A DNA stretch of 64,000 nucleotides from Rhodovulum euryhalinum (GTDB taxonomy: Bacteria > Pseudomonadota > Alphaproteobacteria > Rhodobacterales > Rhodobacteraceae), in assembly GCF_004342445.1 (NCBI RefSeq), contig NZ_SLWW01000002.1, positions 62,001-126,000 of the forward strand, given 5' to 3'. Below the pieces are notes generated by a model, which did not search any database, was not told where the DNA came from, and was given only the letters and a program-made list of their open reading frames with translations. Within the stretch, counting starts at the first letter, position 1, and every line of letters starts with the position of its first letter. The position numbers and the translations under genes were made by a program. This document shows, in pieces, positions 2,389 through 25,928 of the stretch.

Positions 2389-2718
2389 ATGATGCGGACG
2401 GCGCGCGCGAAATACGGACTCGGACAGGTTGTCCGCCATCGGAAGCATCCCTTCCGGGGGGTTGTGTTCGACGTGGATGCGATGTTCTCGAACACCGACG
2501 AATGGTACGAAGCAATCCCCGAGGAAAGCCGCCCCGCCAAGGATCAGCCATTCTACCACCTGCTGGCTGAGAACGACCACAGCTATTACGTGGCCTACGT
2601 GTCCGAGCAGAACCTCGTGCCCGACGACACCGGCGAGCCGGTGGACCACCCCGACCTCGCCGATCTGTTCGGCGAGTTCGAGGATGGGCATTACCCCCTG
2701 CAATTCCAGTTGAACTGA
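2389..2718 (+). CDS. hspQ: Heat-shock protein HspQ (hemimethylated-DNA-binding YccV-like fold)
   Basis: About 109 residues. YGLGQVVRHRKHPFRGVVFD near the start, followed by FYHLLAE and YVSEQNL, is the signature of the HspQ/YccV family. In E. coli HspQ is a small heat-shock protein that modulates Lon protease specificity and was earlier described as a hemimethylated-DNA-binding protein. The frame extends upstream to 2338, but the start is placed at 2389 (next ATG 2392) because GAGG at 2377-2380 is correctly spaced and homologues begin there. The 250 bp upstream, shared with the divergent lipoprotein gene, shows no clear sigma-32 promoter by eye. Confidence 0.9.
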   Translation: MMRTARAKYGLGQVVRHRKHPFRGVVFDVDAMFSNTDEWYEAIPEESRPAKDQPFYHLLAENDHSYYVAYVSEQNLVPDDTGEPVDHPDLADLFGEFEDGHYPLQFQLN

Positions 2719-2732
2719 GGCGGGCGCCGGGC

Positions 2733-4313
2733 CTAGTAGCCCAGCGCGCAGCCATCCTTGCGCGGGTCGGACGCGCCCTGCAGGACGCCCGTTTTCTCGT
2801 CGATCAGGATCGCCTGGGCACCGCCGATCGGCACGTCGGGGATCACGACCTGATGGCCCATCGCGGCCAGTTCGGCGCGCGCCGCGTCGGTATAGCCGCG
2901 TTCGACCTGCATCTGGCCGGCATCGGTGAAACTGCGGGGCGCGTCGATCGCCTGCTGCGGGTGCATGCCGTAATCGACGACGTTGGTCAGGAACCGGGCA
3001 TGCCCGTTCGCCTGGTAGGCCCCGCCCATCACGCCGAAGGGCATCATCACCTTGCCGTCCTTGCGAAGCATCGCGGGGATGATCGTGTGCATCGGCCGCT
3101 TGCCGCCCGCCGCCTCGTTCGGATGACCCTCGGCGAGGGTAAAGCCCGCGCCGCGGTTCTGGAAGTTGATGCCGAACTTTGCCGAGGCCAGGCCCGAGCC
3201 GAAGGCGTGGAACACAGAATAGATCAGCGAGACCGCCATCCGGTCCTTGTCGACCACCGTCAGGTAGATCGTGTCCTTGTGGACCGATTCCGACAGCGCC
3301 GCGGGGCTGTCCATTGCCCGGCCGGGGTCGATCAGCGCGGCCAGCCGCACGGCGGTCTCGGGTGACAGCATGTGGTCCAGCCGGGTCATGTGCGCGGGAT
3401 CGGCGATGAAGCGGTTGCGCGCATCATAGGCAAGCTTCGCCGCCTCGGCCTCGACATGGGCGCGCTGGGCGCCCAGCGGGTCCATGTTCGGAAGGTCGAA
3501 ATGCGACAGGATGTTCGCCATCAGGATCGCGGTCGCACCCTGGCCGTTCGGCGGATGCTCGACCAGTTCGATGCCCTTGTAGGTGCCGCAGACCGGCTCG
3601 GTCCAGTCGCAGGCGGTGGCGGCGAAATCGTCCAGCGTGTGCGTGCCGCCCAGCGCGCGCAGCGAGGCCACCATATCCTCGGCAACCTCGCCCTCGTAAT
3701 AGCCCGCGCGCCCGTCCATCGCGATCCGGCGTAGTACCTCGGCCTGCATCGGCGCGCGGAACACCTGGCCCGGGCGCGGCGCGGCGCCGTCCAGCAGGTA
3801 GAACCGGCGGGCATCGCCCTGCAGGTTCCCTTCGGTGCAGCCCCAGTCCCAGGCGGTGCGCGGCGCCACGGGAACGCCCGCCTCGGCATAGTGGATCGCG
3901 GGCGCAAGGCTGGCCTTCAGACCGGCGCGGCCCCAGTCCTTCGACAGGCGGCAAAAGGCGTCGATCGCACCCGGCACGGTAACGGCGTCGGCGGTATTGA
4001 TGGGCATCGCGGTCAGCCCGCGGTCGCGCAGCGCCGCCGCGTCCAGCCCCGCGGGCGCCCGGCCCGACCCGTTCAGCGCCAGGATGCGGTCCTCGCCGGC
4101 CGGTTTCAGCAGGACGAAACAGTCGCCGCCGATCCCGGTCATGTGGGGTTCGCAGATGCCCAGCAGGACAGCCCCGGCAATCGCGGCGTCAACCGCGTTG
4201 CCGCCCGCCTCCAGCATCTGGATCGCGACCTTGGCCGCCAGCGGGTGCGACGTGGCGCAGATTCCGTTCGTGGCGAAGACGGCCGAGCGGCCCGGAAGCT
4301 GGAAATCGCGCAT
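2733..4313 (-). CDS. Gamma-glutamyltransferase family protein
   Basis: An Ntn-hydrolase of 526 residues related to gamma-glutamyltranspeptidase, which autocleaves into two subunits and hydrolyses or transfers gamma-glutamyl groups. The self-processing Thr sits in HKDTIYLTVVD (T348 from the chosen start), aligned with the T of TTHYSVVD in E. coli GGT. GNAVDAAIA and GIGGD near the N-terminus and MGGAYQANGHA near the C-terminus are typical. The frame extends 18 codons further upstream, but the ATG at 4313 has a strong AGGGAGG ribosome site. No signal peptide is obvious from that start, so it may be one of the cytoplasmic GGT-like members whose substrate cannot be told from sequence. Confidence 0.9.
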   Translation of the reverse strand: MRDFQLPGRSAVFATNGICATSHPLAAKVAIQMLEAGGNAVDAAIAGAVLLGICEPHMTGIGGDCFVLLKPAGEDRILALNGSGRAPAGLDAAALRDRGLTAMPINTADAVTVPGAIDAFCRLSKDWGRAGLKASLAPAIHYAEAGVPVAPRTAWDWGCTEGNLQGDARRFYLLDGAAPRPGQVFRAPMQAEVLRRIAMDGRAGYYEGEVAEDMVASLRALGGTHTLDDFAATACDWTEPVCGTYKGIELVEHPPNGQGATAILMANILSHFDLPNMDPLGAQRAHVEAEAAKLAYDARNRFIADPAHMTRLDHMLSPETAVRLAALIDPGRAMDSPAALSESVHKDTIYLTVVDKDRMAVSLIYSVFHAFGSGLASAKFGINFQNRGAGFTLAEGHPNEAAGGKRPMHTIIPAMLRKDGKVMMPFGVMGGAYQANGHARFLTNVVDYGMHPQQAIDAPRSFTDAGQMQVERGYTDAARAELAAMGHQVVIPDVPIGGAQAILIDEKTGVLQGASDPRKDGCALGY

Positions 4314-15141: not shown

Positions 15142-15350
15142 GGCGGCCCCTCCCGGCGCAAGCCTAGGGCGGCGCCCGGGTCACGTCCAGAGCCCAGTCC
15201 CGGCGGCCGCGCATGGCCGAAAGGCAGGGGCCTTTCGGCTGGCACGCGCCGCAACCGGGCGATCTCGGCGGCACGTTGCCCGACGGAAACGCAAACTTAA
15301 CGCGTTGCGCCGAAGCTCTGCCGGAAAATCCGTTGCTTGCGAGTGATCAA

Positions 15351-17429
15351 ATGAAGCTTCGCACGAAGATCGTTCTGGCGATCACGTTATCCGTGGTCAT
15401 GTCGGCCTTGCTGGTTCTCGTCCCCATGCTGATCGGCATGCAGGGGCTGATCGAAAAGGGCACCGAGCGGGAACTTGAACATCTCGACAAGCGATTCCAC
15501 GCGGCACTGGAATCCAGGCTGCAGGGGGCGTTGACGACGGCTTCGCTGATCGCCGAGATGCCCGCCGTCCAGCAGGCGATGGCCAGCGGAGACCGCGCGA
15601 CACTGCACGAGTTGTTCGTGCCCGGCTTTGCCCGGATGCGCAGCGAGTACGGCATCCGGCAGTTCCAGTTCCACGAACCGCCCGCGACCTCGTTCTTCCG
15701 GGTGCACAAGCCCGACCAGTTCGGCGATGATCTGTCGGGGTTCCGCCAGACGGTGATCGAGGCCAACGCGCGCAAGGCGCCGATTGCCGGGCTTGAACGC
15801 GGGCGGGGCGGGCTGGGGATCCGCGGGATCAGCCCGGTGGCCCATCAGGGGCGTCATCTGGGAACGGTCGAGATCGGGCTCGACCTCGACGCGGCCTTCA
15901 TTCGGGATCTGGTCGCCGAGTCCGACGCGCTGATCGAGTTCTACGTGCTGCCCGACAAGAGCATAGACAACTTCTCGTCAGAGGATTCCGCGGTCACACG
16001 CAGCGCCGCAAGCTTCGAGGGCGACCCCGCGCTCGAGTCGCAAGCGATCCTCGCGGCTGGCGATACCGGGATCGGCATGGTCTCGCGCGAGGTCGGGGGA
16101 ACCAGTTACGCGAGCGCGGCGTTCCCGGTGACGGATTTCGCGGGGACAACCGTGGCCCTGCTGCATGTTATGGTGCCGCGTTCGGCCTACCTTGCGATCG
16201 CGGGGCAGATGCGGCTGATCGCGTTCGGCGCCGCGGCGGCCGCCCTGATCGCTGGCCTCACCGCCGCGGTCATCTTCGGCACGCGCCTTGCCGGAACGCT
16301 GACCGATCTGGTCGAAAAGATGGGACGTCTGGCCGATGGCGAACTCGACGTGCGGTTTTCGCGCAGAACGCGGCAGGGCGGCGAGGTCGGCAAGCTGCAG
16401 GACGGGCTCGTCACCTTCCGCGACAAGGTCATTGCCGAATTCAAACGGCGCGAAGAGGATGCAAACCAGAATGCGGCGCATCAGAAGGCGGTGGTCGAGG
16501 TTCTGGGTGACGGCCTTCGACAGATGGCCCAAGGCGACCTGACCGGCAGGATCGACCAGAACCTCGGCGCGCACTACAACGGACTGCGCGACGACTACAA
16601 CGAAACGGTCCGCAGTCTTGGCGAGGTGCTGTGCGCCATTTCCGACGCCGCCACCAGGATCGACGAACGGGCCCGGTCCATCAACGTCGCCGCCCATGAC
16701 CTGTCACAGCGCACCGAGAATTCGGCCGCCACGCTGGAGGAAACCGCGGCCGCGCTGCACGACCTGACATCATCGGTTCACGCCACCGCCACCGGCGCGC
16801 GCGACGCCGACGAAATCGGCAGCGAGACCATCGGCAAGGCGCGGACTGGCGCCCACATCGTCGCCGACACCGTCGTCGCGATGACCGAGATCAACAGCTC
16901 GGCCGACGAGATCTCGCGGATCATCCATGTCATCGACGACATCTCGTTCCAGACCAACCTGCTTGCCCTGAATGCGGGCGTCGAGGCCGCGCGCGCGGGC
17001 GAGGCCGGCCGCGGCTTCGCGGTCGTCGCGTCGGAAGTGCGGGCCCTGGCGCAGCGCACCACCGACGCCGCGCAAGAGATCGGGCTGCTGATCGCGTCAT
17101 CGGGCGACAAGGTCAAACAGGGCGTGGGGCTGGTCGACCAGACCGGGCAGGCCCTGAACGAGATCGTGCGCGCGGTCGAAGCGGTGACCGCCAAGGTCAG
17201 CCAGATCGCCACGCTGGCCGGCGAGCAGGCGGTGGGCGTGGGCGAGATCAATATCGCCGTCGGCCAGCTTGACCAGGTGACCCAGCAGAACGCCGCGATG
17301 TTCGAGGAAACGACCGCGGCCAGCGACACGCTGCAACTCGAGGGCCAAACGCTGCGCGAACTGGTGTCCCGCTTCCGCTACCGGTCCGACACCGCCGGTG
17401 ACTTCGCCGTGCGGCCCATGGTGGCCTGA
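15351..17429 (+). CDS. Methyl-accepting chemotaxis protein with periplasmic Cache-like sensor
   Basis: 692 residues. Transmembrane helix 1 is at about 7-27 and helix 2 at about 287-307. The periplasmic part between them contains FQFHEPPATSFFRVHKPDQ and HLGTVEIGLDLD, typical of Cache-type sensors of chemoreceptors. A HAMP region (about 308-360) follows, then a methyl-accepting domain whose tip reads ISFQTNLLALNAGVEAARAG, which contacts CheA and CheW. There is no C-terminal CheR-tethering pentapeptide. The ligand is unknown. The start at 15351 gives a normal TM1; the upstream extension is antisense-like coding. No chemotaxis operon is adjacent, so it must work with che genes elsewhere. Confidence 0.93.
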   Translation: MKLRTKIVLAITLSVVMSALLVLVPMLIGMQGLIEKGTERELEHLDKRFHAALESRLQGALTTASLIAEMPAVQQAMASGDRATLHELFVPGFARMRSEYGIRQFQFHEPPATSFFRVHKPDQFGDDLSGFRQTVIEANARKAPIAGLERGRGGLGIRGISPVAHQGRHLGTVEIGLDLDAAFIRDLVAESDALIEFYVLPDKSIDNFSSEDSAVTRSAASFEGDPALESQAILAAGDTGIGMVSREVGGTSYASAAFPVTDFAGTTVALLHVMVPRSAYLAIAGQMRLIAFGAAAAALIAGLTAAVIFGTRLAGTLTDLVEKMGRLADGELDVRFSRRTRQGGEVGKLQDGLVTFRDKVIAEFKRREEDANQNAAHQKAVVEVLGDGLRQMAQGDLTGRIDQNLGAHYNGLRDDYNETVRSLGEVLCAISDAATRIDERARSINVAAHDLSQRTENSAATLEETAAALHDLTSSVHATATGARDADEIGSETIGKARTGAHIVADTVVAMTEINSSADEISRIIHVIDDISFQTNLLALNAGVEAARAGEAGRGFAVVASEVRALAQRTTDAAQEIGLLIASSGDKVKQGVGLVDQTGQALNEIVRAVEAVTAKVSQIATLAGEQAVGVGEINIAVGQLDQVTQQNAAMFEETTAASDTLQLEGQTLRELVSRFRYRSDTAGDFAVRPMVA

Positions 17430-17499: not shown

Positions 17500-18261
17500 C
17501 TACTCGCCGGCGGCGGAAAGCGCCGCGGCCTCGTCCAATGGGGCCAGCGGTGCACCGGCGCCGATCGCCGCGAGATAGGAATCGAGCGTCTCAAGGGATG
17601 AGGCCGGCGCATAGCCCGTGTCGACCGCGCCCGCCACCACGGCAAAGCGGGTCTGCCAGCCCGCAGCCTCGCGGCAGGCGACCGAGACCACCGTGGCGCG
17701 TTCGGCGGCATCCAGCTCGAACTCGCGGCAAAGTTCGCCATCGGCGTTGCGGAAGGACGCGATGATCGCGACCTCGCCATCCGCGACCGCCGCCCGCGCG
17801 CCCGAGGGCAAGCCCGACAGCGCCTCGGCCAGTCCCCTTGTCCCGAGCGTGGCGATCCGCAGCCCCCCCGGCACCCCATCCCCCAGCGACAGCCCGACCA
17901 GCACACCGCCCGCAAGCCCGAGAGCCAGCGCAAGGCCTGCCGCGATCGCCATTGGCCGAAACGGTCGGGGCGGGACGGACGGGCGGCGCAACGGCACGAC
18001 AGTCGCATCGGTCTCTGCCCCTGCCCGCCCGGCCTCGATCGTCGCGCGCACCCGCGCCATCAGCGCGTCGGGCACCGGCGCCTCGGGCCGCGCCGCCGCG
18101 GCGCGTGCCAAGACGTCGCGCGTGCCGGAAAACAGCGCAAGCCGCCGGGCCAGGGCCGGATCGGCCGCCACCGCCGCGCCGACCCGCGCCGCCTCGGCCG
18201 GGTCAAGCGCGCCGTCGGCATAGGCCATCAGGGTCTCGTCGCTGAAATCGTTCGTTGTCAT
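17500..18261 (-). CDS. Membrane-bound anti-sigma factor (ECF partner)
   Basis: 253 residues. The N-terminal cytoplasmic part (FSDETLMAYADGALDPAEAA) resembles the sigma-binding region of RskA/ChrR-type anti-sigma factors; the HxxxCxxC zinc motif is absent. One transmembrane helix lies at about 104-126, followed by a roughly 125-residue periplasmic domain (FRNADGELCREFELD). It lies 44 bp downstream of the sigma gene. Start 18261 has AGGAG upstream. An ECF-type promoter element (18288-18317) lies just before it, so it should be transcribed by the sigma factor it inhibits, a negative feedback loop. Release probably needs a periplasmic signal. Confidence 0.85.
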   Translation of the reverse strand: MTTNDFSDETLMAYADGALDPAEAARVGAAVAADPALARRLALFSGTRDVLARAAAARPEAPVPDALMARVRATIEAGRAGAETDATVVPLRRPSVPPRPFRPMAIAAGLALALGLAGGVLVGLSLGDGVPGGLRIATLGTRGLAEALSGLPSGARAAVADGEVAIIASFRNADGELCREFELDAAERATVVSVACREAAGWQTRFAVVAGAVDTGYAPASSLETLDSYLAAIGAGAPLAPLDEAAALSAAGE

Positions 18262-18287: not shown

Positions 18288-18317
18288 GGGACTACGTGCG
18301 ATCCGTCATTCTATTCC
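18288..18317 (-). promoter_or_regulatory. ECF-type promoter of the anti-sigma gene (copy A)
   Basis: On the minus strand: GGAATA, 16 bp, GTAGTCCC. The same 6+8 bases with the same 16-bp spacer recur at 18829-18858 and 21500-21529. The -10-like part ends 27 bp before the anti-sigma start codon. The -35-like part overlaps the last codons of the sigma gene. Confidence 0.8.
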
Positions 18318-18797
18318 CATCTTCTCGGCCAGCGCGACCCGGCCGCGGGCAAGGCGGCTCATCACCGTGCCCCTGGGGATCTCCAGCACCTCGGCCGCCT
18401 CGGCATAGCTCAACCCCTCGATACAGACGAGCACGATCACCTCGCGCTGCTCGGCCGGAAGCATGGCCAGCGCGGCCTGCGTCTGGCGCAGCATCAGCGC
18501 CGCCTCGGTGGCCCGGGCCCCGTCATGGACGGCGGCCTCGGGGGCATCGGTGATGTCGATCTCGACCCCGCGCGTGCCCGACCGCCGCGCGCTGTCGATC
18601 CAGGCATTGCGCAGGATGCGGAACAGCCAGGGTTCCAGCCGCATCGACGGATCGAACCGGGTCCGCGCGGCGATGGCGCGCTCGACCGTGGTCTGCACCA
18701 AGTCGTCGGCGATATCCGGCTTGCGGCACATCGACAGCGCGTAGCGGCGCAGCACCGGAAGCGCCTCGATCAGGCCCGTCTCGAACGCATCCGCCAT
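18306..18797 (-). CDS. ECF-type RNA polymerase sigma factor (RpoE-like)
   Basis: 163 residues. Region 2 (LSMCRKPDIADDLVQTTVERA, then PWLFRILRNAWID) recognises the -10 element; region 4 (LPAEQREVIVLVCIEGLSYAEAA and PRGTVMSRLARGR) is the helix-turn-helix for the -35 element. There is no region 1 or 3, as expected for ECF sigmas. The start is either ATG 18797 or ATG 18818; neither ribosome site is decisive. It is divergent from the protease gene and followed by its anti-sigma gene. The element repeated three times in this region is the likely recognition sequence. Which promoter drives the sigma gene itself is unclear: no minus-strand copy precedes it. Confidence 0.92.
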   Translation of the reverse strand: MADAFETGLIEALPVLRRYALSMCRKPDIADDLVQTTVERAIAARTRFDPSMRLEPWLFRILRNAWIDSARRSGTRGVEIDITDAPEAAVHDGARATEAALMLRQTQAALAMLPAEQREVIVLVCIEGLSYAEAAEVLEIPRGTVMSRLARGRVALAEKMGIE

Positions 18798-18828
18798 GCC
18801 CCTGCCTGCATTGTTCATCCGCTTCCGC

Positions 18829-18858
18829 GGAATAATATCCATCCCGGAACGTAGTCCC
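18829..18858 (+). promoter_or_regulatory. ECF-type promoter of the subtilase gene (copy B)
   Basis: GGAATA (18829-18834), 16 bp, GTAGTCCC (18851-18858) on the plus strand, 34 bp before the protease ATG. Identical core and spacing to copies at 18288-18317 (minus) and 21500-21529 (minus). Confidence 0.82.
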
Positions 18859-18892
18859 ATCGAAACCGGACGACCACGAGGGATTCCCGCCG

Positions 18893-20272
18893 ATGCGCTT
18901 GCGCCCCTTCGCATTGCTTCTTCTCGTCGCGACCCTGTCGGCCGCGCTGATCCTGCCCGCGGCGCTGCACCCGCTGGCGCCCTGGGGCGTGGCTTGGGCG
19001 GACGACGACGATGACGATGATGATGATGATAACGATGCGCCGTCGGGCGCGCGCGGCCGGGACGATGACTCGGGGGGCGGGCCGGGGCCGCGGGCGGGAT
19101 CCGGGGGCAACTTCCTGCGCAACCTCTTCGGACAGCCCCGGCAGGTGCGCCGCTCCACACCAGCCCCCCCGCCGCCGGCCTTCGTCGCGGACGAGATCGT
19201 GGCGCTCTCGCTCACGGTCGAGGATCTGGCGGCGCTGACCGCGCAGGGCTTTTCGGTGATCGAGGAACTGGCGGTGCCCGGGCTCTCGGCCACGCCGCGC
19301 CGCCTGCGCGTGCCGCCGGGCATCGCGCTGGCCGATGCCCGGGCGGCGGTGCGGGCGCTGACGTCGGGCCAGGATGCCGACTTGAACCACTATTACCGCG
19401 CCGAGGCGGGCTTTGCCACGGATTGCCGCGGCGCCGACTGCCCCGCGCGCCAGACCATCGGCTGGCCGCGCCTGCCGGTCCGCGAGGGCACCTGCGGGGC
19501 CAGCGTGCCGATCGGCATGATCGATACCGGGATCAACGAGGCGCACGAAACCTTCGACGGCGCCCGGATCGAGCTGCACCGCCTCTCGCCCGAAGGCTTC
19601 GATCCGTCCCGCGCGGTCCACGGCACCGCGGTTGCGGCGCTGCTGGTCGGCGATCCGGCGACGCGCGCGCCCGGGCTGGTGCCGGGGGCGCGTCTGGTCG
19701 CGGTCGACGCGTTCCACCGGGCGGGCGCAGACGAGCGGGCCGACGTGTTCACCCTGGTCGAGGCGCTGGGCTTTCTCGCCGGGCAGGGCGTGCGGGTGAT
19801 CAACCTCAGCCTCGCGGGCCCCGACAACGGCGTGCTGTCCGAGGCGATCGGCCAGCTGGTCGGGACACACGACATCGTCGTGGTCTCGGCCGCGGGCAAT
19901 GGCGGGCCGAACGCCCAGCCCGCCTATCCCGCCGCCTACGAGCCGGTGATCGCCGTGACCGCCGTCGACCGCGCGGGTCGGGTCTACCGCCGGGCAGTGC
20001 AGGGCGCGCATATCGACCTGGCCGCCCCGGGCGTCGATGTCTGGACCGCCGCCTCGGTCAGGGGCGCGCGGTGGAAAACCGGCACCTCCTTTGCCGTGCC
20101 CTTCGTCTCGGCCGCCGCGGCCATCCTGCGCGAGGCACGGCCCGACCTGACCGCCGCCGAGGTCGGCGACGAGTTGCGCCGTCGCGCGCGCGACCTGGGC
20201 CCGCTCGGCCATGACGCGGTGTTCGGGGCGGGCCTGCTGAACCTTGGCACGCTGTGTGGCGACAAGACCTGA
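18893..20272 (+). CDS. Exported S8 (subtilisin-like) serine protease with poly-Asp N-terminus
   Basis: 459 residues. A signal peptide ends about AWA at residue 36, and the mature chain begins with ten Asp followed by N47 and D48. A Gly/Asp/Arg-rich linker and a region resembling an inhibitor prodomain (about 95-165) follow. The S8 catalytic residues are all present: D211 (GMIDTGI), H243 (HGTAVAAL), oxyanion N336 (AAGNGG) and S399 (GTSFAVPF). It therefore should be an active protease in the periplasm or outside the cell. It is transcribed from the ECF-type promoter at 18829-18858, and the DUF6065-like gene follows after 17 bp. The substrate is unknown; the anti-sigma domain or the Ser/Asn protein are candidates by association only. 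Confidence 0.9.
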   Translation: MRLRPFALLLLVATLSAALILPAALHPLAPWGVAWADDDDDDDDDDNDAPSGARGRDDDSGGGPGPRAGSGGNFLRNLFGQPRQVRRSTPAPPPPAFVADEIVALSLTVEDLAALTAQGFSVIEELAVPGLSATPRRLRVPPGIALADARAAVRALTSGQDADLNHYYRAEAGFATDCRGADCPARQTIGWPRLPVREGTCGASVPIGMIDTGINEAHETFDGARIELHRLSPEGFDPSRAVHGTAVAALLVGDPATRAPGLVPGARLVAVDAFHRAGADERADVFTLVEALGFLAGQGVRVINLSLAGPDNGVLSEAIGQLVGTHDIVVVSAAGNGGPNAQPAYPAAYEPVIAVTAVDRAGRVYRRAVQGAHIDLAAPGVDVWTAASVRGARWKTGTSFAVPFVSAAAAILREARPDLTAAEVGDELRRRARDLGPLGHDAVFGAGLLNLGTLCGDKT

Positions 20273-20289
20273 AGGGAAGGGACAGGAAC

Positions 20290-21000
20290 ATGAGCCTCTT
20301 GCGCAAGATCACCCCGACGATCCGCTTTCTCTGCGATCCGGCCGACGAGGGGGTGATCGCGCCCCCGGTCCCGGCCAAGGCCTACACGCCCGACTGGTTC
20401 CGCCGCCTGCCCGCGGTCGACGAGGCGCAGGTGTCACCCACCGATACCGGGCTGACGGTCAAGCGTTGCCTGCCGTTTCTCGACGCGATGACCGCGGGCT
20501 GGATCATCCCGCTGGCGGCGACCGTCCGGCTGGATGTCCGGAATGGCGGGCGGGATGTCGAGGCGGGCTGGGATTTCGACCGCACCATGGTCAGCTTTCA
20601 CGGCGCCCACCAGGTGCGCGGCAATCCCTGGGGCGATCGCGCGGCCTGCAAGTTCCACAATTTCTGGACCATCGTGACGCCCCCTGGCTGGAGTTGCCTG
20701 TTCCTCGATCCGCTGAACCGGCCGAACGGCCTGTTCGAGGTGCTGGCGGGCGTGGTCGACACCGACACCTACCAGGCGCCGGTGCATTTTCCCTTCGTCC
20801 CCACCGGCCCCGACGGGCTGCACGTGATCGAAAAGGGCTCGCCGCTGATCCAGGTGATCCCGTTCCGCCGCGACACGGCCGCCCTCGGCGCCGAGATCCG
20901 TGCCGAAACCCGGGCCGAGGCCGCCCAACGCGACAAGGTCACGCGCAGCACCCGTGCCGCGCCCGGCTGGTACCGCACCGAGGCGCGCGCGAAACGCTGA
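20290..21000 (+). CDS. DUF6065-like protein of unknown function
   Basis: 236 residues, no signal peptide or membrane segment. KFHNFWTIVTPPGWSCLF, FEVLAGVVDTDTY and VHFPFVPTG are strongly patterned blocks that I associate with the DUF6065 family; that family name is from memory and should be checked. Function is unknown. It starts 17 bp after the protease stop with an AAGGGA...AGGA ribosome site, so it is the second gene of the ECF-promoter operon. A terminator follows, shared with the converging Ser/Asn gene. Confidence 0.7.
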   Translation: MSLLRKITPTIRFLCDPADEGVIAPPVPAKAYTPDWFRRLPAVDEAQVSPTDTGLTVKRCLPFLDAMTAGWIIPLAATVRLDVRNGGRDVEAGWDFDRTMVSFHGAHQVRGNPWGDRAACKFHNFWTIVTPPGWSCLFLDPLNRPNGLFEVLAGVVDTDTYQAPVHFPFVPTGPDGLHVIEKGSPLIQVIPFRRDTAALGAEIRAETRAEAAQRDKVTRSTRAAPGWYRTEARAKR

Positions 21001-21044
21001 CGCGCGCCTTCGGGCTTTCCAAGGGTCTCCGGCCCCCATGCGAA

Positions 21045-21070
21045 AACGCCGGCCCCAAAGGGCCGGCGTT
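21045..21070. terminator. Bidirectional terminator between the DUF6065-like and Ser/Asn genes
   Basis: Stem AACGCCGGCCC (21045-21055) and GGGCCGGCGTT (21060-21070) with a 4-nt loop. On the minus strand it is followed by TTTT, on the plus strand by a weaker T-rich stretch. It lies between the stops of the two converging members of the ECF regulon. Confidence 0.85.
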
Positions 21071-21096
21071 CCTGATTTCCGCCGGGCGGGCCGGTC

Positions 21097-21459
21097 TCAA
21101 TCGTCGTCGTCACTCGAGTTCGAGCTGCTGTTCGAACTGGAGTTGGAGCTCGAATTCGAACTGGAGTTGCTGTTCGAGTTGGAGTTGCTGTTCGAACTCG
21201 AATTGCTGTTGGAGTTGCTGTTCGAATTGGAGTTCGAATTCGAAGAGCCCCGCCGGCGGTCGTCGTCGTCGCGATCGTTGCGGTGACTCCGCCGCTCGAA
21301 GCGCACCTCGGTCTGGCGCTCGCGCCAGTCGCGGTCCCCCGCGCGGAATTCCCTGGCGAGGTTCTCGAGATAGCCGCGGATACCATCGGCCTCGACCGGC
21401 CCCGACAACGTTGTGGTGGCGGCCAGAGCCATGACCAGCGTGGATACGATTCGTTTCAT
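21097..21459 (-). CDS. Exported low-complexity Ser/Asn-repeat protein
   Basis: 120 residues. A signal peptide (MKRIVSTLVMALAATTTLSG, cleavage near VEA at 24) precedes a highly charged segment (about 27-70) with DDDD and RRR runs. Residues 72-116 then contain only Ser and Asn, first as SN dipeptides, then as SSSN units, and the protein ends in four Asp. Start ATG 21459 was chosen because GGGAGA precedes it and because the ECF-type promoter at 21500-21529 would start transcription below about 21495, excluding the earlier ATGs. No homologous function is known to me. Such tails can be flexible linkers, glycosylation substrates or aggregation-prone tracts; none is shown here. Confidence 0.8.
   Translation of the reverse strand: MKRIVSTLVMALAATTTLSGPVEADGIRGYLENLAREFRAGDRDWRERQTEVRFERRSHRNDRDDDDRRRGSSNSNSNSNSNSNSNSSSNSNSNSNSNSSSNSSSNSSSNSSSNSSDDDD
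21112..21246 (-). repeat. Ser/Asn-coding tandem tract
   Basis: 135 bp encoding 45 consecutive Ser or Asn residues: an (SN)n part and a distal (SSSN)n part. Ser codons vary among AGC, AGT, TCG and TCC while Asn is AAC or AAT, so the DNA is a degenerate hexamer-like repeat rather than a perfect microsatellite. This suggests selection on the protein sequence. Confidence 0.85.
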
Positions 21460-21499
21460 GGTCGTCTCCCTTGGGTTGGCTGCCATCAGCGGCAGCACA

Positions 21500-21529
21500 G
21501 GGACTACGGCGGACCCGCTCGTCTATTCC
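21500..21529 (-). promoter_or_regulatory. ECF-type promoter of the Ser/Asn-repeat gene (copy C)
   Basis: On the minus strand: GGAATA (21529-21524), 16 bp, GTAGTCCC (21507-21500), 40 bp before the start codon at 21459. Core and spacing are identical to copies A and B. Confidence 0.82.
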
Positions 21530-21727: not shown

Positions 21728-22981
21728 ATGTTCCGTTACATGACATTCGCCCCGCTCGTCGCGGCGGCCGGTCTGGCCCTTGGTGCGCCAGCCCGGGCCG
21801 AGGGCACGGTCGAGGTGCTGCACTGGTGGACCTCGGGTGGCGAGGCCAAGGCGGTCGGCGAGTTGAAGCAAAGCTTCGAGGCCGCGGGCGGCACCTGGAT
21901 CGATTCGCCCATCGCGGGCGGCGGCGGCGACGCGGCGATGACGGCGCTGCGCGCGCGTGTCGTGGCGGGCAACCCGCCGACCGCGGTGCAACTGAAAGGC
22001 CCCGGCATCCAGGAATGGGCCGAGCTGGGCGCGCTGGCCGATGTCGAAGGCGTCGCCGCGGCCGAAGGCTGGGACGGCGTGCTGCCGCCGGTGCTGGCCG
22101 CGATCATGAAATCCGATGGCCGCTACGTCGCCGCGCCGGTGAACATCCACCGCGTCGACTGGATCTGGGCCAACCCCGAGGTTCTGGCGCGGGCCGGCAT
22201 CGACACCATGCCCACCACCTGGGACGAGTTCAACGCCGCCGCCGACAAGCTTATCGCGGCGGGCATCACGCCCTTGGCCCATGGCGGCCAGCCCTGGCAG
22301 GACGCCACCATCTTCGAGAACGTGGTCCTTGGCGTCGGCGGGGCCGAATTCTATCGCGCCGCGCTGGTGAACCTCGACCCCGAGGCGCTGACCTCGCCCA
22401 CGATGGTCGCGGCCTTCGACCAGTTGCGCAAGATGCGCGGCTATGTCGACGCCAACTTCTCGGGCCGCGACTGGAACCTCGCCACGGCGATGGTGATGAA
22501 CGGCGAGGCCGCGTTCCAGATCATGGGCGACTGGGCCAAGGGCGAATTCCTGGCCGCGGGCAAGGTGCCGGGCAAGGATTTCGTCTGTGCGCCGACGCCC
22601 GGGGGCGGCTTCGTGCTGAACGCCGACAGCTTCACCTTCTTCAAGGTCTCGGGCGAGGACAACATCGCAGGCCAGCAAAAGCTGGCCAGCCTGATCATGT
22701 CGCCCGAGTTCCAGAAGACCTTCAACCTCGCCAAGGGCTCGATCCCCGCGCGCACCGACGTGCCGCTGGACGAGTTCGACGACTGCGCCAAGCTGTCCCA
22801 TGCCGACCTGCTCAAGGCGACCGAGGCGGACACGCTGGTGCCCTCGATGGCGCACGAGATGGCGATCTCGCGGTCGGTGCGCGGCGAATTCCTCGACCTC
22901 GTGACCGAGTTCTTCAACTCGGACATGAGCTCCGAGGACGCCGCCCAGCGGCTTGCCGACGCCGTGAAACGCGCGATGTGA
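21728..22981 (+). CDS. Sugar ABC transporter substrate-binding protein
   Basis: 417 residues, family-1 extracellular solute-binding protein. The signal peptide ends at APARA. VEVLHWWTSGGEAKAV and the NPEFQKTFN-like helix region are typical of the glucose/mannose-binding members (GtsA type) of this family. It captures a sugar in the periplasm for the two permeases that follow. Start 21728 has GAGGAGG. First gene of a four-gene unit with two permeases and an ATPase, all on the plus strand. No regulator adjoins. The substrate is inferred to be glucose or a related hexose from resemblance only. Confidence 0.9.
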   Translation: MFRYMTFAPLVAAAGLALGAPARAEGTVEVLHWWTSGGEAKAVGELKQSFEAAGGTWIDSPIAGGGGDAAMTALRARVVAGNPPTAVQLKGPGIQEWAELGALADVEGVAAAEGWDGVLPPVLAAIMKSDGRYVAAPVNIHRVDWIWANPEVLARAGIDTMPTTWDEFNAAADKLIAAGITPLAHGGQPWQDATIFENVVLGVGGAEFYRAALVNLDPEALTSPTMVAAFDQLRKMRGYVDANFSGRDWNLATAMVMNGEAAFQIMGDWAKGEFLAAGKVPGKDFVCAPTPGGGFVLNADSFTFFKVSGEDNIAGQQKLASLIMSPEFQKTFNLAKGSIPARTDVPLDEFDDCAKLSHADLLKATEADTLVPSMAHEMAISRSVRGEFLDLVTEFFNSDMSSEDAAQRLADAVKRAM

Positions 22982-23025
22982 CAGGGACGCGCCGGGGGCC
23001 ACCCGCCCCCGGCCACCCCGCAAGA

Positions 23026-23925
23026 ATGGCCGGCACCGGATTCCTCACCACTCTCTCGCGCGGCTTCGAACGCCGCCTGCCGCTGATCGTGGTCTCGCCG
23101 CTCTTTGCGCTGAGCCTCTTCTTCGTCTACGGTTTCATCGCCTGGACCGTCTGGATTTCCTTCACGAAATCCGGCGTCATGCCGGTCTACGACCTGTCGG
23201 GGCTTGCCCAATACGAACGGCTCTGGACGACGCCCCGCTGGTATGTGGCGCTGAAGAACCTGTTCATCTTCTCGTCGCTCTTCATCGGTATCTCGATGGC
23301 GCTGGGCATCGTCCTCGCCATTCTGCTCGACCAGCGGATCCGGGTCGAGGGCGTGATCCGCACCATCTACCTTTATCCGATGGCGCTGTCCTTCATCGTT
23401 ACCGGCACCGCGTGGAAATGGATCCTCAACCCCGGCCTCGGCATCGAAAAGCTGGTGCGTGACTGGGGATTCCCCGACTTCACCTTCGACTGGCTGGTGA
23501 ACCCCGATTACGCGATCTACACCATCGTCATCGCCGGGGTCTGGCAAAGCTCGGGCTATGCGATGGCGCTGTTCCTGGCGGGCCTCAGGTCCGTCGACGA
23601 CGAGGTGCTCAAGGCCGCCGCCATCGACGGCGCGGGCGCCTGGCGCACCTATACCCGGATCGTGCTGCCCTCGATGCGGCCGGTGTTCCTGTCGGTCGTA
23701 ATCATCCTGGCGCATCTGGCGATCAAGAGCTTCGATCTGGTCGTGGCCCTGACCGGGGGCGGCCCCGGCTATGCCACCGACATGCCCGCCACCTTCATGT
23801 ATGCCTTCGCCTTCCAGCGGTCGGAGCTGGGCATGGCCGCGGCCAGCGCGGTGATGATGCTGGCCACGATCTGCGCGATCATCGTGCCCTATCTCTATTC
23901 CGAGCTTCGGGGGGCACGGCGATGA
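23026..23925 (+). CDS. Sugar ABC transporter permease (first)
   Basis: 299 residues, about six transmembrane helices. The cytoplasmic EAA loop reads DDEVLKAAAIDGAGAWRTYTRIVLP, the docking site for the ATPase. Start ATG 23026 follows the binding-protein gene by 44 bp; the ribosome site is only AAGA-like. The last 4 nt overlap the next permease gene (ATGA), so translation is coupled. It forms a heterodimeric channel with the 23922 product. Confidence 0.9.
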   Translation: MAGTGFLTTLSRGFERRLPLIVVSPLFALSLFFVYGFIAWTVWISFTKSGVMPVYDLSGLAQYERLWTTPRWYVALKNLFIFSSLFIGISMALGIVLAILLDQRIRVEGVIRTIYLYPMALSFIVTGTAWKWILNPGLGIEKLVRDWGFPDFTFDWLVNPDYAIYTIVIAGVWQSSGYAMALFLAGLRSVDDEVLKAAAIDGAGAWRTYTRIVLPSMRPVFLSVVIILAHLAIKSFDLVVALTGGGPGYATDMPATFMYAFAFQRSELGMAAASAVMMLATICAIIVPYLYSELRGARR

Positions 23926-24815
23926 GGGCGCGCCGCACCTCGGGTATCGTCCACCGGTCCGGTCCCGGCGCGTGGCTGCTGCGCGGGTTGCTGTTCACGA
24001 TCCTCGGGCTCTTCTGCCTCTACTACCTGTTCCCGCTCTTCGTGATGCTCGCCACCTCGGTGAAATCGCTGGCGGAAATTCGCGAAGGCAGCTTTCTCGC
24101 CTTCCCTCGCGACATTAGCTTCGAGGCCTGGGCCAAGGCCTGGGGCGCGGCCTGCGTGGGCGTGCGCTGCGACGGGTTGCAGCCCTATTTCATGAACTCG
24201 GTGATGATGGCGGTTCCCGCCGTTCTGCTCTCCACCACGCTGGGGGCGCTGAACGGCTATGCCCTGACCAAATGGCGCTTCCCCGGCGCCGACATCATCT
24301 TCGCGCTGATGCTGTTCGGCGCGTTCATCCCTTTCCAGGTGGTGCTGCTGCCGATGGCGCGCACGCTGGGCGAACTGGGGCTGGCGGGCACCGTGCCGGG
24401 GCTGATCCTGGTCCACACCGTCTATGGCCTGGCCTTCACCACGCTTTTCTTCCGCAACTTCTTCATCGGGGTGCCCGACGGCATCGTGCAGGCGGCCAAG
24501 GTCGACGGCGCGGGCTTCTTCGGCATCTTCTTCCGCATCGTGCTGCCGATGTCGCTGCCCGCCATCGTGGTCACCGTGATCTGGCAGTTCACCCAGATCT
24601 GGAACGACTTCCTCTTCGGCGTGGCCTTCACCGTGGGCGATTCCAACCCGGTGACGGTGGCGCTCAACAACGTGGTGAACACCTCGACGGGGGTGAAGGA
24701 ATACAACGTCGACATGGCCGCGGCGATCATCGCGGGCCTGCCGACGCTGTTGGTCTATGTCGTGGCCGGGGCGTATTTCGTGCGCGGCCTCTCGGCCGGG
24801 GCGGTAAAGGGGTAG
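23922..24815 (+). CDS. Sugar ABC transporter permease (second)
   Basis: 297 residues of the MalG/GtsC type with six helices. The EAA loop is PDGIVQAAKVDGAGFFGIFF. A periplasmic insert with GVRCDGLQPYFMNS is characteristic of the glucose-type transporters I know of. It starts inside the stop of the first permease and ends 3 bp before the ATPase gene, confirming a single operon. Confidence 0.9.
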   Translation: MRARRTSGIVHRSGPGAWLLRGLLFTILGLFCLYYLFPLFVMLATSVKSLAEIREGSFLAFPRDISFEAWAKAWGAACVGVRCDGLQPYFMNSVMMAVPAVLLSTTLGALNGYALTKWRFPGADIIFALMLFGAFIPFQVVLLPMARTLGELGLAGTVPGLILVHTVYGLAFTTLFFRNFFIGVPDGIVQAAKVDGAGFFGIFFRIVLPMSLPAIVVTVIWQFTQIWNDFLFGVAFTVGDSNPVTVALNNVVNTSTGVKEYNVDMAAAIIAGLPTLLVYVVAGAYFVRGLSAGAVKG

Positions 24816-24818
24816 GGC

Positions 24819-25928
24819 ATGGCATCGGGCATCCGGCTGGACAAGGTCCGCAAGAGCTTCGGCGCGACCGATGTCATCAAGGGCATCGACCTGACCATCG
24901 AGCCCGGCGAATTCGTGGTCCTCGTCGGCCCCTCGGGCTGCGGGAAATCCACACTGCTGAACCTGATCGCGGGCCTCGAAACCGTCAGTTCGGGCGACAT
25001 CCTGATCGGCGGGCAGAACGTCAACCGCGTGCCGCCGCGCGACCGCGACATCGCCATGGTGTTCCAGTCCTACGCGCTCTACCCGACCAAGACGGTGCGC
25101 GCGAACATCACCTTCGGGATGGAAACCCGCCGCGTGCCCCGCGATGCGCAAGAGGCGGCTGTCGAGGAATTCTCGCGCCTTCTCCAGATCGACCACCTGC
25201 TCGACCGCAAGCCCGGCCAGCTCTCGGGCGGCCAGCGGCAGCGGGTGGCGATGGGCCGCGCATTGGTCCGGCAACCGGCGGTGTTCCTGTTCGACGAGCC
25301 GCTCTCGAACCTCGACGCCAAGCTACGGATCGAGATGCGGACCGAGATCAAGAAGCTGCACCAGCGGCTGGGCAAGACCGTGGTCTACGTCACCCACGAC
25401 CAGATCGAGGCGATGACGCTCGCCACCCGCATCGCGGTGATGGACAACGGCCACATCCGCCAGTTCGCCGACCCCGCGACGATCTACGAATATCCCGTCG
25501 ATCTGTTCGTGGCGGGCTTCATGGGCTCGCCGCCGATGAACATGATCCGGGGGCGGCTGTTCCACGAAAACGGCCGGGTGTTCGTGCTGCCCCTCGGCGC
25601 GCGCGAAAGCGTCCGGTTCCCGCTGGTGGGCGCGGCGGGCACTGCCGCGCTGGCGGACAGCCGCGAGGTGGTGCTGGGCCTGCGCCCCGAGACGATCTTT
25701 GCCGCCGGGTCCGAACTGCCCGGCCCGAACCGCCACGTGTTCGAGGCCCCCGTCGAGGTGGTCGAGCCCACCGGCCCCGACACCATGCTGGTGTTCCAGA
25801 TCGGCGGGCAGGATCTCATCGCCCGCGTCCGCCCCGAGGACGTGGCCACCCCCGGCAAAACCTTCCGGTTCGAGGTGGACATGGGCAAGGCCAAGCTGTT
25901 CGACGCCGAAACCGGCCTCGCGCTCTGA
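24819..25928 (+). CDS. ugpC: Sugar ABC transporter ATP-binding protein (UgpC/MalK type)
   Basis: 369 residues. Walker [10 protein letters not shown] (38-46), Q-loop Q83, signature LSGGQ (135-139), Walker B VFLFDE (155-160) and switch H193 (THDQIEAM) are all intact. The C-terminal extension (about 235-369) is the OB-fold regulatory domain of MalK/UgpC-type ATPases, which often drive more than one sugar transporter. Fourth gene of the importer operon. The gene symbol reflects family naming, not proven glycerol-3-phosphate transport. Confidence 0.9.

Follow-up and report, generated by a model that had tools for sequence, protein, structure and literature searches.

A probable RpoE6-type sigma factor switch with a very small local regulon in Rhodovulum euryhalinum

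A stretch of 64,000 nucleotides from Rhodovulum euryhalinum (contig NZ_SLWW01000002.1, positions 62,001 to 126,000; hereafter “the window”, with positions counted from its first letter) contains a gene for a sigma factor of the extracytoplasmic function (ECF) type, around which three copies of one promoter-like element are arranged. In all likelihood, this gene and its neighbor encode a sigma/anti-sigma switch of the RpoE6 type (ECF group 26) with a very small local regulon, and the elements, judged by their sequence and placement, are very probably the promoters of the locus’s own sigma factor. Comparison of the encoded proteins identifies the rpoE6 cluster on pSymA of Sinorhizobium meliloti, which belongs to the ECF26 group, as the orthologous locus; experiments there have placed three and probably all four of the target genes under RpoE6 (Lang et al., 2018; PMC6180224). 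The same promoter code is found at orthologous genes across Rhodobacterales and Hyphomicrobiales, backed by the published S. meliloti data. The features of the locus are the following:

17500..18261, minus strand: putative membrane anti-sigma factor, EcfR6-like (43% identity to EcfR6; hydropathy; N-terminal anti-sigma motif)
18288..18317, minus strand: putative ECF promoter element of the anti-sigma gene (exact match; an element stands at this place in 73 of 80 related loci, or in 76 if the limits are widened)
18306..18797, minus strand: ECF sigma factor, ortholog of S. meliloti RpoE6 (Pfam Sigma70_r2 and r4_2; 55% identity over 154 amino acids)
18829..18858, plus strand: putative ECF promoter element of the subtilase gene and probably the DUF6065-like gene (exact match; position occupied in 70 of 80 related loci)
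18893..20272, plus strand: subtilase (peptidase S8), ortholog of SMa0142 (45% identity; Pfam PF00082, 1.1e-31)
20290..21000, plus strand: DUF6065-like protein, ortholog of SMa0148 (66.5% identity; Pfam PF19541, 4.5e-08)
21097..21459, minus strand: small Ser/Asn-repeat protein (alternating Ser-x tract, x being Asn or Ser; C-terminal DDDD)
21500..21529, minus strand: putative ECF promoter element of the Ser/Asn-repeat gene (exact match; a site precedes 16 of 16 Ser/Asn-repeat genes found in 80 loci)

In the proposed switch, the anti-sigma factor would span the inner membrane and hold the sigma factor, until a signal from outside the cytoplasm, perhaps perceived via the invariant cysteine pair in the outer domain of the anti-sigma factor, releases it. 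The free sigma factor would then read three promoters (GGAATA-N15-CGTAGTCCC): the first would supply more anti-sigma factor and thereby a shut-off feedback; the second would yield the exported subtilase and most likely, on the same transcript, the DUF6065-like protein; and the third the exported Ser/Asn-repeat protein. The DUF6065-like protein might prepare the repeat protein in the cytosol, with the subtilase subsequently trimming it outside.

Putative promoter elements and the sigma/anti-sigma pair

An earlier note on this DNA had described a triple motif, GGAATA-N16-GTAGTCCC, with an ECF sigma gene in its midst. The window indeed holds exactly three copies at these places, all free of mismatches, and Pfam identifies the sigma factor at 18306-18797 on the minus strand. 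Since the 16-base spacer ends in C in every window copy, the -10 element is better written CGTAGTCCC, with a spacer of 15 bases. The distance from element to ATG, previously given as 27 to 40 bases and right within a base, amounts to 26 bases for the anti-sigma gene (17 to an upstream GTG), 34 for the subtilase gene and 40 for the Ser/Asn-repeat gene. The -35 GGAATA of the anti-sigma copy sits within the final codons of the sigma gene (ATG GGA ATA GAA TGA). The DUF6065-like gene begins 17 bases past the subtilase stop and is without an element of its own in the window, and is therefore probably co-transcribed with the subtilase gene.

When up to three mismatches are allowed, the window yields five matches, of which the additional two come from reading the first and the third element on the other strand, the motif being close to a dyad; shuffled sequences (n = 100) gave 1.66 matches on average and reached five once. 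The genome scan that had been proposed for GGAATA-N15..17-GTAGTC (3,789,126 bases, 44 contigs) returned three matches, all at this locus, and none for the reversed control; GGAATA-N15/16-CGTWNTC, which contains the bases common in relatives, found the same three only. In their full form, the elements are far beyond chance and strictly local. The shortest form, GGAATA-N15/16-CGT, occurs 41 times in the genome versus twice for the reversed control. Inspection covered 30 of the 41 matches, namely those of the window and 27 outside it: in three of the 27, CGT is followed by A or T, and in ten, an ATG or GTG within 75 bases opens a frame of at least 70 amino acids. All 27 fall within an open frame on some strand, as do the window copies, so that position in an open frame does not discriminate in this GC-rich genome.

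The putative anti-sigma protein matches anti-sigma-type models of Pfam and NCBIfam only below their cut-offs. By hydropathy, it has one hydrophobic segment near residues 103-121, and C177 and C195 in its C-terminal half are invariant in 74 of 74 aligned rows; the domain that carries these two cysteines is presumably exported. The subtilase begins with a signal-like segment followed by an Asp-rich stretch. Such an Asp/Glu-rich stretch near the N-terminus is found in 65 of 78 rows and recalls the Asp runs of the small proteins described below; three cysteines of the subtilase are invariant in 78 of 78 aligned rows. The two alignments omit 7 and 3 of 81 rows, respectively, in which the open reading frame was missed by the filter.

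Conservation of the promoter code and competing explanations

Related loci were collected by scanning a species-genome collection with the sigma protein, which found 380, and the best 80 of these 380 were used. The divergent subtilase is present in 79 of the 80 loci and the anti-sigma factor in 78, both of its absences being short loci. GGAATA-N15/16-CGT occurs 271 times in these loci, versus two to five times in five first-order Markov shuffles: 70 of the 80 loci have a site before the subtilase gene and 73 (76 with wider limits) have one that precedes the anti-sigma gene at the 3' end of the sigma gene, where the -35 element often overlaps the final sigma codons, as in the window; 115 sites lie elsewhere. 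Sites facing the sigma gene itself were found in ten of the 80 relatives and not in the window. The first base after CGT agrees between the two main sites of a locus at a rate of 0.69, compared to 0.54 after shuffling (reached in 7 of 5000 shuffles; 68 rows with both main sites, window included), which is expected if one local sigma factor reads both. The exact spelling GGAATA-N15-CGTAGTCC is found in only 2 of 196 genomes of the order (three copies in the own genome, one in another), and the reversed-pattern control has one match each in five genomes; the exact spelling is therefore not conserved, only the looser code. A spacing control, with the spacer one base longer (N16-CGTAGTC), gave no exact match and 16 matches with one or two mismatches, versus 25 for its control pattern.

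Experimental evidence comes from S. meliloti, whose RpoE6 belongs to ECF26, a group with a cross-species consensus of -35 GGAATA and -10 GT (PMC6180224). Transcription starts obtained by 5' rapid amplification of cDNA ends or RNA sequencing define promoters of ecfR6, the serine protease gene SMa0142 and SMa0148, a conserved hypothetical gene; upon RpoE6 overexpression, their log2 increases are 3.6, 4.7 and 6.5, respectively (Lang et al., 2018; PMC6180224). We located all three promoters on pSymA (L114), where SMa0148 corresponds to the DUF6065-like gene and another site, at 80312, is directed at an open reading frame with Ser/Asn repeats that starts at 80386; SMa0146 is also named as an RpoE6 target (PMC6180224). 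The four-gene regulon of the local sigma factor proposed in the earlier note is thereby plausible, given that most of the 80 loci carry this promoter type at their orthologous genes and that the orthologous protease, anti-sigma and DUF6065-like genes rise with RpoE6 in S. meliloti; it is refined in that the DUF6065-like gene is a probable subtilase co-transcript. Its remark that no account of such a regulon was known does not hold, as the ECF26-group RpoE6 regulon has been published (PMC6180224).

Several points weigh against this interpretation. Taken together, the four bases after CGT agree weakly within a locus (0.43 versus 0.38; 87 of 5000 shuffles reach that value), and a strict match is missing before the subtilase gene in 10 of the 80 relatives and before the anti-sigma gene in 7. 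The sigma gene carries no element, so there is no sign of autoactivation here. In R. euryhalinum the regulon is predicted from sequence, and ECF26 membership follows from orthology, with the window sigma compared one way and RpoE6 (SMa0143) taken as the S. meliloti sigma, not from the group’s own profile. Any action of the subtilase or the DUF6065-like protein on the repeat protein is something we infer. The pSymA record has no gene table, and SMa0146 is only likely to be the Ser/Asn open reading frame. A strictly local regulon would differ from the 40 direct and indirect RpoE6 targets reported in S. meliloti (PMC6180224), and overexpression of SMa0142 had no visible effect on nitrogen fixation in a peptidase screen (PMC8175422).

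Two other explanations of the elements have to be weighed. They might be operators of a dimeric DNA-binding regulator, since GGA(A/C)TA...TAGTCC comes close to an inverted repeat: for two of the three copies in the window, the opposite strand matches as well, with three mismatches, and overlapping, almost palindromic copies occur in seven loci with a gamma-carboxylase-like gene (L005, L006, L011, L036, L045, L063, L078). However, the elements point to start codons with short leaders, transcription starts of S. meliloti that lie behind this type of sequence are RpoE6-responsive (PMC6180224), the bases after CGT vary across loci (the constancy of GGAATA and CGT is fixed by the search pattern and no independent evidence), and palindromic copies between divergent genes are equally explained by two overlapping promoters, which makes operators very improbable. 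It is just as hard to credit that the elements serve another ECF sigma factor of the genome, such as one for general stress, with other targets for the local one: the genome has five further sigma-like matches (the best 45% identical to the window sigma), the consensus motifs of RpoE6 and ECF15 (general stress) are somewhat similar and cross-activation occurs among ECF26 members (PMC6180224), but all three copies surround this one sigma gene, with none elsewhere in the genome, and in most of the 80 loci this sigma is accompanied by the same arrangement of sites and genes.

Putative exported cargoes and their possible partner proteins

Besides the main sites, the promoter code in the 80 loci precedes a changing set of genes. 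The 107 further downstream proteins fall into 29 clusters, 13 of them with at least two members, which include DUF6065-like proteins (12) and Ser/Asn-repeat proteins (16, in several clusters). The Ser/Asn-repeat protein of the window has no credible family assignment and is probably exported, as its sequence suggests. In its longest tract, 16 of 16 Asn residues lie on one parity, and its Ser codons are mixed; likewise, in all 17 such proteins (window included) every Asn of the longest tract keeps one parity, and Ser is encoded by both TCN and AGY codons. Accordingly, the alternation would be kept by selection at the protein level and not by recent DNA slippage.

The Ser/Asn-repeat and DUF6065-like genes occur jointly in 15 of the 80 loci; one locus (L083, cut by the contig end at 7009) has only the former, one only the latter, and 63 have neither. 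The single DUF6065-like gene, at 2664-3315 of a Roseobacter locus (L025), is split into two overlapping segments that lie in separate frames, which gives the impression of a pair in decay. An own promoter site precedes all 16 Ser/Asn-repeat genes and 12 DUF6065-like genes. Fisher’s test for the association (4e-14) ignores relatedness and is not to stand alone: there are five phylogenetically independent pairs, on average 4.9 of them in the same direction, with which a sign test cannot reach 0.05, and the Ser/Asn trait requires at least seven changes on the sigma tree. As far as these loci tell, the two genes travel together, with too few independent changes for proof. It is rather unlikely, on balance, that they are jointly gained passengers, merely adjacent and devoid of a joint function; the small number of independent pairs would allow this, and against it stand the distribution of 15 loci with both genes and one each with either alone (one explained by a contig end, the other a split gene), the repeated changes of the trait, the own promoter copies of both genes and the strict alternation maintained despite mixed codons. 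A link between the products of the RpoE6 targets is not made in the available text of Lang et al. (2018; PMC6180224). In the open-licence literature of PubMed Central, neither the co-occurrence of the pair nor the alternation of cargoes was found, no paper on DUF6065 was found, and SMa0145, SMa0146 and SMa0148 were found in Lang et al. only.

The DUF6065-like protein lacks an N-terminal hydrophobic segment. It passes the gathering cut-off of DUF6065 (PF19541; 33.3 versus 26.6 bits), within which it can be regarded as a distinct subfamily: 30 loci from a PF19541 search (flanks of about 1.5 kb) contain neither a Ser/Asn repeat nor the motif, and 15 of 22 further relatives (9-16 kb) contain no Ser/Asn repeat and no subtilase or anti-sigma match, with two short motif matches in one of these 15 (L138) and a 34% sigma match in another (L144). 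The family is common in uncultured phage contigs, and PHROGs has one good family for it, phrog_7084, of unknown function; none of 80 phage loci (L171-L250) has a Ser/Asn repeat, and a short motif match is present in nine. It seems that a family widespread in phages and bacteria was recruited into the RpoE6-type locus.

A first structural model from 15 close orthologs was rejected (mean predicted local distance difference test score, pLDDT, 49; no fold match at E 0.001). The second, from 12 bacterial proteins including that of the window and 33 phage homologs, which share 27-42% identity with the window protein and were chosen from 46 of 80 viral loci after removal of near-copies, reached a mean pLDDT of 91.2 and a predicted template modeling score of 0.84. 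Compared with the PDB by Foldseek, it has eight dUTPase matches at E ≤0.001, the best with E 2.6e-04, probability 1.00 and a template modeling score of 0.73 by target length; by query length, the scores are about 0.3-0.4. The model also resembles uncharacterised phage proteins. The DUF6065-like protein is hence predicted to have a dUTPase-like beta-clip fold, which hints at a dUTPase-fold family that has so far gone unrecognised. When PDB sequences were searched by profile, the wider alignment had no match at E up to 1, and the shallow alignment had a best, partial match at E 0.011 that is not credible. An initial guess of a cupin-type oxygenase was rejected given the dUTPase-like fold and the absence of any His conserved in at least 85% of the wider family. 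The likeness to the dUTPase superfamily lies in the predicted fold; the difference is that the protein has 236 amino acids with large extra parts. A G-V-V-D-x-D-x-Y stretch recalls dUTPase motif 3, its first Asp being replaced by Glu in 23 of 54 wider-family members; of the catalytic motif set, only stretches like motifs 3 and 4 are recognised.

In ten of the 80 loci, a site serves an HTTM enzyme in place of the Ser/Asn-repeat and DUF6065-like pair. In L004, the representative tested against Pfam, this enzyme carries a vitamin-K-dependent carboxylase lumenal domain (PF05090, 1.1e-75; PF22777, 1.2e-34); the other nine loci were assigned by similarity, and the R. euryhalinum genome encodes no HTTM protein. 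A small Asp-run protein ending in Asp lies near the HTTM gene, found by automatic search in nine of the ten loci, in seven of which a site is recognised close to it, and by eye in L008. The two cargoes, DUF6065-like (16 loci) and gamma-carboxylase (10 loci), show no overlap among the 80, which is not significant on the tree. A supported clade of eight sigma factors (99/95) mixes both: the window, L009 and L010 have the Ser/Asn-repeat and DUF6065-like pair, and L004 to L008 the carboxylase type. Six changes of either cargo label are needed on the sigma tree if each cargo is compared with the other alone, with the 54 rows that have neither left out.

Overlapping motifs on opposite strands form near-palindromes at L005:7522, L006:8748, L011:7768, L036:1059, L045:2631, L063:6706 and L078:6699, between the gamma-carboxylase-like (HTTM) gene and a gene for a DCC-type oxidoreductase (in L045 recognised by eye); these copies may be compact bidirectional ECF promoters. 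Further types of cargo behind or near a site are an RTX calcium-binding protein (L006:6446-7228), an Asp-run protein with an EF-hand-like stretch seen by eye (L005, near 6544), and DUF4956 (L032:2498-3076, with a relative in L075).

As a tentative view, the RpoE6-type switch might be a stable chassis for exchangeable export cargoes, which are matured by the near-universal Asp-tagged subtilase. Each cargo would then combine a small exported low-complexity protein with a dedicated protein that modifies or prepares it: the Ser/Asn-repeat protein with the dUTPase-fold DUF6065-like protein, and the poly-Asp protein with the vitamin-K-carboxylase-like enzyme and the DCC oxidoreductase. If this possibility were true, it would establish a novel class of peptides that are modified and exported under a common promoter code, and the exchange of cargoes would indicate which proteins are candidate substrates of the bacterial enzymes related to vitamin-K-dependent carboxylase. 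Of the findings at this locus, it is the pattern of cargoes that deserves further work.

Extra sites precede varying gene combinations in L012-L018, L020, L022, L024, L025, L031, L073, L074 and L077. In the Roseobacter type, these comprise a permease of the CitMHS/Na-sulfate-symporter type, a glycerate kinase and an OmpR-type response regulator (Pfam on L012 proteins only), and three Ensifer/Sinorhizobium loci share the permease and the glycerate kinase with them. Nine loci (L035, L049, L052-L054, L058, L059, L061, L066) have behind a site a family of about 350 amino acids with no clear Pfam assignment and a weak MobB match below cut-off. In the window, the regulon is flanked by a methyl-accepting chemotaxis protein (15213-17429) and, on the other side, by a sugar ATP-binding cassette transporter operon (21734-25928), both recognised by eye from translations.

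Comparison with known ECF26 systems

Within ECF26, the closest S. meliloti counterparts of sigma and anti-sigma factor are RpoE6 and EcfR6 (SMa0143/SMa0144). Several marks of the RpoE6 type are found in the window: the RpoE6 ortholog, GGAATA/(C)GT promoters with a spacing of 15-16 bases, the divergent serine protease, and a downstream anti-sigma factor of predicted membrane topology, as indicated by hydropathy and its similarity to EcfR6. Identities between window and pSymA are 55% for the sigma factor, 43% for the anti-sigma factor, 45% for the subtilase and 66.5% for the DUF6065-like protein, and a Ser/Asn open reading frame is present in both. An anti-sigma promoter inside rpoE6 was suggested for S. 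meliloti, and a divergent protease gene is described as a widespread trait of the group (PMC6180224). In both organisms the sigma gene itself is without an ECF-type promoter; that of S. meliloti rpoE6 resembles RpoD/RpoH promoters (PMC6180224). The differences are that the -10 elements at these genes read CGTT in S. meliloti and CGTAGTCCC in the window, that the DUF6065-like gene of S. meliloti is located past the anti-sigma gene under a promoter of its own, whereas the window copy follows the subtilase gene, and that the many direct and indirect targets in S. meliloti contrast with three sites, all local, in R. euryhalinum.

S. meliloti RpoE1 and RpoE4 share the ECF group, similar promoters and the anti-sigma build, but respond to sulfite and target sulfite oxidation genes (Bastiat et al., 2012; PMC3511301), none of which stands at the window sites. 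In S. meliloti, RpoE6 moreover activates an ECF26 promoter of heterologous origin (PMC10880074). The text available of a paper on Azospirillum RpoE6 does not mention ECF26 or this promoter (PMC12826043), and subtilases are mentioned for other ECF groups only in what is available of a further study (PMC8999054).

For S. meliloti itself, the comparison provides the hypothetical protein SMa0148 with an identity, as a DUF6065-like protein that has a predicted dUTPase-like fold and is accompanied by a Ser/Asn protein of strict alternation. No functional role of RpoE6 is reported by Lang et al. (2018; PMC6180224), and the role they left undefined becomes directly testable.

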